DNA from: an uncultured Thermomicrobiales bacterium | Lineage (GTDB): Bacteria; Chloroflexota; Chloroflexia; Thermomicrobiales; UBA6265 | DNA: 64,000 nucleotides | Direction: 5' to 3' | Assembly (NCBI GenBank): GCA_902806335.1 | Contig: CADCWG010000146.1 | Span: forward strand, 1 to 64,000 | Part shown: positions 2,657-8,573 of the stretch, piece by piece | Position numbering within the stretch: position 1 is the stretch's first letter | Layout: each line of letters begins with the position of its first letter | Made by a program: the position numbers and the translations under genes | Notes under the pieces: model-generated | The model's input: the letters and a program-made list of their open reading frames with translations, nothing else | The model's database searches: none | Told to the model about the DNA's origin: nothing

Positions 2657-3562
2657 ATGCGCGTCCATCTGGTCAGCGTGCCCTACCGCTACGACGAGCG
2701 CGCGGTCGGCCTCGGGGCCGGGCCGGACGCGTTGCTGCGCGAGGGTCTCGCGGCGCGCGTCGCCGCGGCGGGCCTGGAGAGCGTGGGGCCGATCGAGGCA
2801 ACGCTGCCCGACGAGGAGCGAGAGCCGGGCCGCACCGCGCTGAACATCGGGCGCCTCGGGGCACGGACCGCCGGCCTGGTCGCGGCGGCGCGGCGCGACG
2901 GCGCGGGGTCACTCGTGCTCGCCGGCGACGACACCGCCGCGATCGGGATCGTCGCCGGGGTCCAGCAGGCGGACGGCGCCGGCACCCCGATTGGGCTGGT
3001 CTGGGTCGATGCCCACGGCGACTTCAACACCCCGGAGACGTCGTTCAGCGGGATCCTGGCCGGGATGCCGGTGGCGATCCTGGCCGGCCTCGCCGGGCCG
3101 GTCTGGCGTGGGGCGGCCGGGCTGGCCGCCCCGATCCCGACCGACCGGATCCTGCTCGTCGGGACACGGGAGCTCGACGAGACGGAGGGCACCCTCCTCC
3201 GCTCCACCGACGTCCGGGTCCTGGCGCCGGCCGACGTCTGCCGCGTAGACCCGCTGCGGGCCGTGGTCGCGCGGCTCGCCGCGACCTGCGCGGTGATCTG
3301 CCTCCACATCGACCTGGACGTGCTCGACCCGCGGCATGTGCCTAGCTCATCGACGCCAGCCGAACGCGGGCTCGAGATCGACGAGGCCGCCCGGGCGATC
3401 GCGACGGTGCTGGAGACGGGCAAGGTGGCCACGGTCTCCGTCGCCGGCCTCAACCCCGGCGCGGGCGCCCGCGGCACGCGGTCCATCGAGTCGACGCTGG
3501 CGCTCCTCGACCAGGTCCTCCCCGCATGGACCACCACGCCGCCGGCCCCGAACGGAGCGTAG
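2657..3562 (+). CDS. Arginase/agmatinase-family (ureohydrolase) protein with altered metal site
   Basis: 301 residues, the usual length for ureohydrolases, which hydrolyse guanidino compounds to urea at a two-manganese site. Several family motifs are present: WVDAHGDFN at 116-124 (ligands Asp118, His120, Asp122) and HIDLDVLDP at 217-225 (ligands Asp219, Asp221). The first ligand motif, normally GGDHS, reads AGDDT at 89-93, so the ligand His is Asp. The late motif normally ending EVNP reads AGLNP at 263-267, so the Glu that binds the guanidinium group is missing. The fold is therefore clear, but arginine or agmatine hydrolysis is doubtful; a related guanidino or formimino substrate is possible. 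The ATG has GGGAG about 8 nt upstream. No arginine-pathway neighbour is nearby. Confidence 0.85.
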   Translation: MRVHLVSVPYRYDERAVGLGAGPDALLREGLAARVAAAGLESVGPIEATLPDEEREPGRTALNIGRLGARTAGLVAAARRDGAGSLVLAGDDTAAIGIVAGVQQADGAGTPIGLVWVDAHGDFNTPETSFSGILAGMPVAILAGLAGPVWRGAAGLAAPIPTDRILLVGTRELDETEGTLLRSTDVRVLAPADVCRVDPLRAVVARLAATCAVICLHIDLDVLDPRHVPSSSTPAERGLEIDEAARAIATVLETGKVATVSVAGLNPGAGARGTRSIESTLALLDQVLPAWTTTPPAPNGA

Positions 3563-5534: not shown

Positions 5535-6128
5535 TCAGCGGGGGACGGACGCGGCGGCCGTGGCGGCACGCCAGGCGTCCCGCGCGGCGACCCAGTCGGC
5601 GCGCAGGACGTCGAAGATGAGCGAGTCGCGGTAGACGCCGCCCTTGATGTCCCGCCACCTCACCCGCCCCGCCGGGCGATACCCCTGCTTCGCCAGGGCG
5701 GCGGCGGAACGGGCGTTGGGTTCCCAGACCCACGATGTCAGGGCGTGGAGGCCGAGCCGGTCGAATGCGTACTCGAGCAGGAGGTGCTTCGCCTCCGTGC
5801 CGTAGCCCTGCCCCCGGAACTCCGGTCCGAGGAGATGGCTCGCCGTCTCGCCCGTCCGGTTGACCCAGTCCAGATCGAGGATCGCGACCGAGCCGACCAG
5901 GCGGTCGTCGGCGCGGCGGCAGACGGCGAAGTCGACGACCTCCGGCGGACCGTGGCCCGGCGCCGGGGCGGTGATCGCGTGCGCGAAGCCGAGCGGGCTC
6001 GCCGGCAGGCGGCCGCGGTCGAAGAAGGTCTCGGTCTCGCTCGCGAACGCCCGCGCGATGGGCTCGGCGTCCTCCGCTTCGAGCGGCCGGAGGTAGAGCC
6101 GCTCGCCGACGATCGTCGCGTTCCGCAC
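5535..6128 (-). CDS. GNAT family N-acetyltransferase (RimJ/RimL type)
   Basis: 197 residues with the classic RimJ/RimL layout. The N-terminal beta-strand TIVGERLYLRPLEAEDAEPIA is followed by a middle block ending DWVNRTGETASHLLGPE. The acetyl-CoA pyrophosphate-binding loop RGQGYGTEA is at 105-113, and WVWEPNARSAAALAKQGY gives the last conserved GNAT element. Such enzymes transfer acetyl from acetyl-CoA to N-terminal or side-chain amines of proteins or small molecules; the substrate cannot be told from sequence. A second gene of related N-terminal sequence lies directly upstream on the same strand (6255-6845), suggesting duplication and a two-gene unit. Confidence 0.9.
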   Translation of the reverse strand: MRNATIVGERLYLRPLEAEDAEPIARAFASETETFFDRGRLPASPLGFAHAITAPAPGHGPPEVVDFAVCRRADDRLVGSVAILDLDWVNRTGETASHLLGPEFRGQGYGTEAKHLLLEYAFDRLGLHALTSWVWEPNARSAAALAKQGYRPAGRVRWRDIKGGVYRDSLIFDVLRADWVAARDAWRAATAAASVPR

Positions 6129-6254: not shown

Positions 6255-6845
6255 TCACCGTTCGGAGTCGCCCGGCCCGACGGCCCAGCGGGGATTCAGG
6301 GCCTGGTAATAGAAGAGGTCAACCCGGTGCCCCGGGCGCAGCACGGCCTCCCGGAGGCGGACCGCGCGGATCATTCCGAGCGCATCCGCCGCCGCGATCG
6401 TCGCCCGGCCGTCGGCCGGGATCTGGATCGTGACCGTCATCAGCTCCAGCTCGTCCCGCGCCCAGGGGACGACGATGCCGAGCGCCTCGGCGCGCAGGCT
6501 GTCGGCTTCGTCCGCCGACAGCGACGGCGCGAACCGCAGCGCGAGGCGTCCCCGCCGCCCGCGCGGCTCGGCCAGCTCGGCGCCGCCGACGATCTCCTCG
6601 GCGGGATCCTCGTGCTCAGGGCCGGCGCCCCCGTCGCGCGCCCCCGCCGCCGGCAGTCGGACGATCGCCAGGTGGAGCGGGTCGGCGCCGCCCCATGCCT
6701 GCCGGTGCGTCTCCTTGAGGACGGCCTCGGCGCGGCTGGCGTTGATCGGGAACGGGCCGCACGACCAGGCGGTCGCCTGCTCCGCGTCGCTGGCAAGCAT
6801 CGCCCGCAGATAGATCCGCTCGCCGGTCAGGTAGGCGGGACGCAC
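6255..6845 (-). CDS. GNAT-like protein lacking the acetyl-CoA loop
   Basis: 196 residues. The start (YLTGERIYLRAMLASDAEQ) closely parallels the N-terminus of the acetyltransferase encoded next to it. Later blocks, such as RAEALGIVVPWARDELELM and ALGMIRAVRLREAVLRPGHR, also suggest the GNAT fold, ending in a DLFYYQALNP strand. The expected R/Q-x-x-G-x-G/A acetyl-CoA signature is absent; that region reads EPRGRRGRLALRF instead. It may be a degenerate or non-catalytic homologue, or bind CoA differently. It shares orientation with the 5535-6128 gene and lies 126 nt upstream of it, so the two probably form one transcript. Confidence 0.7.
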   Translation of the reverse strand: MRPAYLTGERIYLRAMLASDAEQATAWSCGPFPINASRAEAVLKETHRQAWGGADPLHLAIVRLPAAGARDGGAGPEHEDPAEEIVGGAELAEPRGRRGRLALRFAPSLSADEADSLRAEALGIVVPWARDELELMTVTIQIPADGRATIAAADALGMIRAVRLREAVLRPGHRVDLFYYQALNPRWAVGPGDSER

Positions 6846-7064: not shown

Positions 7065-8573
7065 ATGGTCGCCACGGTCACGACGACGAGCGTCGATGCG
7101 GTCGAGGACGCCCGGGAGGCGCCGTCCGTCGGCACGCCTCCCAGGGGGCGCCTGGCCGCACCGGGGGCCGTGCTGCTCGTCTCCTGCTACGAGCTGGGGC
7201 ATCAGCCCCTGAGCCTGGCCGGGCCGCTGGCGGAGCTGCGCCGGGCCGGCTTCGCCCCCGTCGCCGTCGATACCGCCGTCGAGGACCTCGGCGAAGACGC
7301 GGTCCGGGCGGCGCGGCTGGTGGCGATCTCCGTGCCGATGCACACCGCGCTGCGGCTCGGCGCGCGGGTGGCGGCACGGGTCCGCTCCCTCAATCCCGCG
7401 GCCCACGTCTGCTTCTACGGGCTCTACGCGACCCTCAACGCCGACCACCTGCTGCGCGAGCACGGGGACAGCGCCATCAGCGGCGAGGTCGTCGCCCCGC
7501 TGCTCGCGCTCGCCCGGGCGCTCGACCGCGGCGAGGGGTTCGAGGGGATCCCCGGCGTCGGCACCGCCCGCGTTCCCGCCGCGCCGGTCCTCGGTCGCGG
7601 CGGCACGCTCGTGCCGGATCGGGCGGGGCTGCCGCCGCTCCGGTCGTACGCCGGTCTCGAGCGGGACGGCGTGATCGTCCCGGCCGGGTACGTCGAGGCG
7701 ACCCGGGGCTGCCACCACACCTGCCGCCACTGTCCGATCACCCCGATCTACGGCGGACGCCTGACCGTCGTCCCGCGGGAGACGGTGCTCGCCGACGCCC
7801 GCGCCCAGGTCGCGGCCGGCGCCCGCCACATCACCTTCGGCGACCCCGACTTCCTGAACGGGCCCGCGCACGCGCTGCGGATCGCTCGGGCGCTCCACGA
7901 GGAGTTCCCGGGGTTGACCTTCGACGCGACGGTCAAGGTGGAGCACGTGCTCCAGCACCGCCGGGTCTTCCCGGAGCTGGCGGCCCTGGGCTGCGCGTTC
8001 GTGGTCTCCGCGGTGGAGTCGCTGAGCGACGAGGTCCTGCTCCGGCTCGCCAAGGGGCACACCCGCGAGGACGTGGTCGCCGCGCTCGACGTCCTCGATT
8101 CGGCCGGCATCCCGATGCGGCCGTCGCTGCTCCCGTTCACGCCCTGGGAGACACTTGACGGCTACCTGGACCTGCTCCGCTTCGTCGCCGAGCGAGACCT
8201 CTCGGGCCACGTCGACCCGGTGATGCTGGCGATCCGCCTGCTGGTGCCGCCCGGTTCGGCGCTGCTGAGCGAGCCGGGGGCGGACGCCTGGCTGGGCGAC
8301 CTCGACGCCGAGCGCTTCACCTACCGCTGGGCCCACCCCGACCCCCGGATGGACGCCCTCCACGCCGAGGTCTCGGCGATCGTCGAGGGGGCGACGGTCC
8401 GCGACGAGTCCCAGCCGGCCACGTTCGTTCGGATCTGGGACGCCGCGCACCGGGCGGCCGGCCACCCGGAGTCGCCCTTCCCGTCGCCCTCGGTCAACCG
8501 GCGCCCGCCGCCGCGCCTGACCGAGAGCTGGTTCTGCTGAGCGGAGCCGACCGCGGACCAGTTGGTCCGCTGA
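7065..8573 (+). CDS. B12-binding radical SAM selenoprotein with CUAEP tail (TGA read as Sec)
   Basis: Residues about 33-150 resemble a cobalamin-binding domain (VLLVSCYELGHQPLSLAGPLAELR). Residues 210-400 form a radical SAM barrel with the 4Fe-4S motif CxxxCxxC at Cys216, Cys220 and Cys223. The conventional frame ends at TGA 8538-8540 just after a Cys codon. Reading that TGA as selenocysteine continues in frame as CUAEPTADQLVR and stops at TGA 8571-8573, giving 502 residues with Sec at 492. This matches the tail that names the CUAEP/CCAEP-tail radical SAM family, as I recall it. A hairpin fitting the bacterial SECIS pattern follows the TGA. The start ATG is preceded by GGAGGGAG (7046-7053), and a -10-like TATAAC lies at 7014-7019. 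The reaction is unknown. Selenium incorporation would need SelA/B/C/D encoded elsewhere. Confidence 0.88.
8541..8570 (+). promoter_or_regulatory. Putative bacterial SECIS element
   Basis: GCGGACCAGTTGGTCCGC at 8553-8570 folds as a perfect 7-bp stem (8553-8559 with 8564-8570) and a 4-nt loop AGTT. The loop starts 19 nt after the TGA at 8538-8540 and has G as its second base. Known bacterial SECIS elements have a small apical loop, a G in the first two loop positions, and a loop 16-37 nt from the UGA; all three hold. The hairpin lies inside the recoded tail, so its bases also code for the last residues. SelB binding is inferred, not shown. Confidence 0.75.

Follow-up and report, generated by a model that had tools for sequence, protein, structure and literature searches.

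ArsL acts in the biosynthesis of arsinothricin, where it is reported to transfer the 3-amino-3-carboxypropyl (ACP) group of SAM to As(III) (PMC8552651), a radical transfer cited again elsewhere (PMC12159101). Published lists of selenoproteins include another radical SAM enzyme, of the ArsS type (TIGR04167, rSAM_SeCys; PMC13188914, PMC9312934). The families that the protein described here matched do not include TIGR04167. AprD4, TsrM and OxsB resemble this protein in having a B12-binding-like domain followed by a radical SAM barrel; we know of no Sec tail in any of them. A text search for "CUAEP" and "NF040546", which took in only part of the literature on selenoprotein families, returned no mention of either term, and no phage record matched.

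A radical SAM gene that continues through TGA

The window is the whole 64-kb stretch of DNA that was analysed. On its plus strand, a frame covering positions 7065 to 8570 leads to ...ESWFC, in which the last cysteine codon (TGC, 8535-8537) is followed by TGA at 8538-8540. The codons after this TGA are GCG GAG CCG ACC GCG GAC CAG TTG GTC CGC, and the frame closes with a stop TGA at 8571-8573. If the first TGA is read as Sec, the tail becomes C-U-A-E-P-T-A-D-Q-L-V-R and the translation has 502 aa, with U at 492. Re-reading the frame returned the same coordinates, codons and tail as the original prediction. The putative start is the ATG at 7065, and homology to the family begins at residue 36. 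The features of the locus are as follows.

2657-3562, plus strand: arginase-family protein, upstream of the gene in several close relatives; link uncertain
5535-6128, minus strand: GNAT N-acetyltransferase, a conserved neighbour of the gene in close relatives alone; uncertain link
6255-6845, minus strand: protein without a Pfam match, a conserved neighbour of the gene among close relatives; uncertain link
7065-8573, plus strand: predicted gene for a CUAEP-tail radical SAM selenoprotein of 502 aa (Sec at 492), including the stop TGA 8571-8573 (translation; NF040546, 704.4 bits)
7170-7529, plus strand: N-terminal B12-binding-fold (Rossmann-like) domain, residues about 36-155, without DxHxxG (PF02310, fold matches, motif scan)
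7710-7733, plus strand: radical SAM [4Fe-4S] motif CHHTCRHC with C216, C220 and C223 (invariant in 65 aligned members; PF04055)
8535-8537, plus strand: codon of Cys491, invariant partner of Sec492 (alignment of 65 members)
8538-8540, plus strand: TGA predicted to be read as selenocysteine, residue 492 (Cys/Sec alternation in the best 80 of at least 585 homologues; sel genes of the genome)
8541-8549, plus strand: AEP of the CUAEP tail (79 of 80 loci, the best 80 of at least 585; synonymous codon variation only)
8553-8570, plus strand: putative bacterial SECIS hairpin GCGGACC-AGUU-GGUCCGC, 7-bp stem, loop 8560-8563, 19 nt past the UGA, fitting the bSECIS constraints (PMC13188914)

Family membership and conservation of the tail

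The original prediction had named the tail as that of a RefSeq family, and this family exists: the read-through protein scored 704.4 bits against the NCBIfam HMM NF040546, "CUAEP/CCAEP-tail radical SAM (seleno)protein" (cut-off 500), with residues 36-500 matching positions 1-466 of the 468 in the profile. Removal of the tail lowered the score by 22 bits, to 682.4. The protein shares with the family the full-length match, the C-[U/C]-A-E-P tail, the CX3CX2C radical SAM motif (CHHTCRHC, residues 216-223) and the alternation of Sec and Cys at one position. Nothing essential differs, and the window copy ends soon past the tail (TADQLVR). The window gene is a further member of this catalogued, uncharacterised family. 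The family's invariant Cys positions comprise the three ligands of the cluster together with the pair 491/492 in the tail.

The best 80 of at least 585 relatives were sampled, from Thermomicrobiota, other Chloroflexota, Rokubacteria, Nitrospirota, Poribacteria, Gemmatimonadota, Nitrospinota and others. Within this sample, the codon at the Sec position was TGA at 61 loci, TGC at 13 and TGT at 6, and the next three residues were AEP at 79 loci and SEP at one. The 19 Cys homologues at position 492 run on through the tail instead of ending at the cysteine. Synonymous changes (GCG/GCA/GCC, GAG/GAA, CCN) were the only differences seen at the A, E and P codons of 76 distinct TGA genes. This conservation at the protein level, together with the alternation of Cys and Sec, indicates that the CUAEP tail is not a product of chance. 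In the Cys forms of Thermogemmatispora (L036, L037, L038, L039 and L048), the tail is longer and ends near a second Cys-Cys pair, as in ...SGCCSVGH.

The TGA at 8538 might instead be a genuine stop, with the conserved codons downstream of it a relic or a coincidence. Gene callers do end there: the RefSeq CDS TRD_RS12835 on the Thermomicrobium roseum plasmid (NC_011961.1) carries the name of the CUAEP/CCAEP-tail family and yet finishes at the TGA, its tail missing, just as had been anticipated for a standard gene caller. Against a genuine stop, the codons of the tail evolve under protein constraint, and the reading frame of the Cys homologues extends across this tail; with the hairpin and the distribution of SelA described below, these observations make this reading exceedingly improbable. 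Since gene callers stop right ahead of a conserved tail, a widespread enzyme family can appear in truncated form.

A hairpin kept in TGA genes

Bacterial SECIS elements are expected to have a loop of 3-9 nt with a G in the first two positions, a stem of 4-16 bp, a distance of 16-37 nt past the UGA and an energy of at most -7.5 kcal/mol (PMC13188914). The hairpin of the window, with its AGUU loop, 7 bp, 19 nt and -15.1 kcal/mol, agrees with all of these values. An Rfam scan of the window gave 0 matches, and as Rfam may simply have no bacterial SECIS model, the hairpin was tested directly. The region is also protein-coding, and for this reason the null was made of 500 synonymous recodings, in which codons were sampled according to the usage of the gene concerned. 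The 76 distinct TGA genes had a mean stem of 6.43 bp against 3.16 (sd 0.16) in the null, where none of the 500 recodings rose above 3.68, whereas the 19 Cys genes had a mean stem of 3.26 bp against 2.84 (sd 0.25). A hairpin satisfying the bSECIS constraints with a stem of at least 5 bp was present at the tail site in 69 of the 76 TGA genes and in 3 of the 19 Cys genes. The stems vary in sequence and still pair (GAGGGCC/GGCCCTC, GGCCGCC/GGCGGCC, GCGCGGC/GTCGCGC), and the loop is mostly AGUU. Long stems that are varied but paired, in TGA genes and not in Cys genes, indicate that selection maintains the hairpin at the RNA level, and does so only in genes with a TGA codon at this position. This specificity is at odds with a genuine stop.

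Selenocysteine machinery in the genome and its relatives

The genome from which the window derives (4.82 Mb, 92.6% complete) encodes tRNA-Sec (68 bits, contig C135), SelB (324 bits, C216), SelA (424 bits, C316) and SelD (356 bits, C14). All four of the sel genes that the original prediction had proposed to look for are thus present in the genome, and their location away from the window contig (C146) fits its observation that the window holds no other selenium gene. The SelD gene (L026, C14:82487-83440) has an in-frame TGA of its own in the motif GUASK, and SelD is itself probably a selenoprotein. Two formate dehydrogenase alpha genes (contigs C66 and C261) have an in-frame TGA at RI-U-HSSS, which indicates that the genome has further selenoprotein genes.

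The distribution of the machinery among relatives was followed through SelA, as the filters of the tRNA-Sec scan are stricter and may miss genes. PF00266 is too broad to serve as a probe for Sec machinery. Among 61 genomes of the same order, a CUAEP gene scored above the cut-off in 43; 42 of these genes have one in-frame TGA, and one (in genome G007) has none. SelA was found in all 42 genomes with a TGA-CUAEP gene, in 6 of 18 others and not in G007 (42/42 versus 6/19 for the rest, p = 4e-9, with relatedness ignored). This co-occurrence of TGA genes and SelA likewise speaks against a genuine stop. Outside the order, SelA was found in 19 of 20 genomes with the TGA form, the exception being a 2.5-Mb MAG. 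Meanwhile, 11 of the 19 Cys-form genomes lacked SelA (Nitrospirota) and 8 had it (Chloroflexota), and these eight rule out a strict rule by which the Cys form would imply the absence of Sec machinery. A tree built without the tail required at least five switches between Sec and Cys among the best 80 of at least 585 relatives. Because the Cys clades are nested among the Sec ones, the tree suggests that Sec is older than Cys at this position within that sample.

The NF040546 score, the Cys homologues, the SECIS and the sel genes together support the reading of TGA 8538-8540 as selenocysteine, and the window gene almost certainly encodes a selenoprotein of the NF040546 family. With a SECIS at the right distance, the Sec machinery in the genome and a conserved tail, ribosomes most likely insert Sec at 8538-8540 and end 10 residues later. 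The covarying SECIS, the repeated Sec/Cys switches and the matching distribution of SelA place this among the better-supported selenoprotein assignments made from sequence alone.

Comparison with ArsL and the fold of the protein

The sole other strong family match was to ArsL (NF040542, formerly RCCLKC-tail), at 297.1 bits; this lies below the cut-off of 450, so the CUAEP protein is not ArsL. The two are 32-38% identical over about 400 aa and have the same domain order. Both have a C-terminal vicinal Cys pair, the CU pair aligning with the terminal RCC-LKC pair of four ArsL-family proteins. In contrast to ArsL, the CUAEP protein has a CUAEP tail and no RCCLKC, with Sec in place of one Cys, as well as an extra C-terminal segment of ~50 residues ahead of the tail.

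The structure model was confident overall, with a mean pLDDT of 90.7, and had the tail at about 55 (low confidence). A sequence search of solved structures gave weak matches only, and the closest whole-fold matches, which lie at the superfamily level, were AprD4 (TM 0.64/0.70), TsrM and OxsB, at identities of 15-21%. The gene had been described as "B12/radical SAM". The radical SAM motif and the B12-binding fold bear this out, the latter with a PF02310 score below the Pfam cut-off (20.1 against 32.1 bits). The DxHxxG motif, however, was found neither in the window protein nor in the first 200 residues of 65 members, and the description therefore names a fold and not a demonstrated use of cobalamin. 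TsrM binds cobalamin without DxHxxG, so the absence of the motif does not by itself exclude cobalamin binding.

These fold matches raise the possibility of a selenoprotein with conventional 5'-deoxyadenosyl or methyl-transfer chemistry, similar to AprD4 or TsrM, in which the Cys-Sec pair would act as a redox relay, returning the enzyme or its substrate to the reduced state. Mammalian thioredoxin reductase, with Cys-Sec at its C terminus, offers a comparison. A tail that is C-terminal and modelled as flexible agrees with such a relay, as does the further CC pair in the longer tails of Thermogemmatispora. Meanwhile, the low identity of the fold matches counts against it, and the sequence is much closer to ArsL than to any family of methyltransferases or dehydratases, the best of which scored 37 bits. 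We consider this alternative less likely than not, though nearly as likely as the ArsL-like chemistry proposed below.

Gene neighbourhood and proposed function

The neighbours of the CUAEP gene vary by phylum. A gene for an ATP-grasp protein with an L-amino-acid-ligase (LAL) C-terminal domain lies within 1.5 kb at 28 of 102 CUAEP loci, spanning four phyla (Rokubacteria, Nitrospirota, Chloroflexota and Acidobacteriota), and a formyltransferase gene lies within the same distance at 20 of the 102, nearly all in Chloroflexota. LAL-type ATP-grasp genes also occur in several ArsL clusters (Priestia, Pantoea, Alicyclobacillus), and those of the two settings are up to 26% identical over their whole length (1e-25). 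Within the family to which the window belongs, the ligase and the CUAEP gene are not adjacent; the genome carries a 53% identical ligase on contig C63, away from it. Among related genomes, the ligase was present in 40 of the 46 that have a CUAEP gene and in 6 of the 15 that do not (p = 7e-4, with relatedness ignored). The ligase neighbours and this co-occurrence suggest that the product of the CUAEP enzyme is itself an amino acid.

Genes for YggX, ErpA, Nfu and CDGSH proteins adjoin the CUAEP gene in several phyla. Their presence suggests a link with iron-sulphur supply or with a redox context, and such iron-sulphur and oxidative-damage genes as common neighbours fit the redox relay considered above.

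Arsenic genes were nearly absent, a further difference from ArsL. No relatives of ArsH, ArsC, ArsQ, aquaporin or ArsN1B were found at the 102 CUAEP loci, where ArsM-like genes occurred at two, an arsenic-transporter-like gene at five and a weak ArsN1A-like match at one; none of the queried arsenic genes was found in the 64-kb window. The acceptor is therefore unlikely to be arsenite in general, and on the evidence of these loci an arsenic substrate was set aside as the general case. The enzyme could still be conceived as a selenocysteine counterpart of ArsL, producing compounds similar to arsinothricin: it has the ArsL homology and the common Cys-pair tail, ArsM- and ArsR-like genes lie nearby at one locus (L053), and there are the five loci with a transporter-like gene. 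Set against the scarcity of arsenic genes, the score below the ArsL cut-off and the lack of an RCCLKC tail, this is quite improbable.

The explanation that we consider best as a whole, a CUAEP/CCAEP-tail selenoprotein with an ArsL-like core, has about an even chance of being correct. We tentatively propose, at somewhat less than even confidence, that the protein resembles ArsL in its chemistry and produces an amino acid, the acceptor being held or reduced by the Cys-Sec pair. The core would work like that of ArsL, and the Cys491-Sec492 pair, on a tail modelled as flexible, would bind or reduce a soft or redox-active acceptor. Judging by its position, the RCCLKC tail of ArsL might do likewise for As(III). 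The product would be a non-standard amino acid, which the LAL-type ATP-grasp enzyme (here on contig C63) would couple to another amino acid and which the formyltransferase may N-formylate in many Chloroflexota.

A further-reaching version of this proposal is possible but rather unlikely: the pair would present a soft acceptor to the ACP radical from SAM, giving an undescribed amino acid; an L-amino-acid ligase, at times joined by a formyltransferase, would build this amino acid into a small metabolite that is not based on arsenic; and the metabolite would occur widely among environmental bacteria, including Chloroflexota, Thermomicrobiota, Rokubacteria and Nitrospirota. What is new here is the functional lead, which comes from the way the tail aligns with that of ArsL and from the ligase neighbours in common. 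These point to a concrete and testable chemistry that, if true, would assign selenocysteine a part in catalysis by radical SAM enzymes.

Several further arrangements were observed. In many Chloroflexota, the gene for YggX (iron trafficking, protection from oxidative damage) overlaps the start of the CUAEP gene by a few bases (L036, L038, L041, L047, L053, L063 and others), which suggests translational coupling. At L053, genes for a formyltransferase, YggX, the CUAEP protein and an LAL-type ligase form a compact group, with the ArsR- and ArsM-like genes nearby. In the Thermomicrobiaceae/Sphaerobacter group, a gamma-glutamyltransferase-like gene lies directly upstream of the CUAEP gene (L044, L049, L050, L061 and L155).
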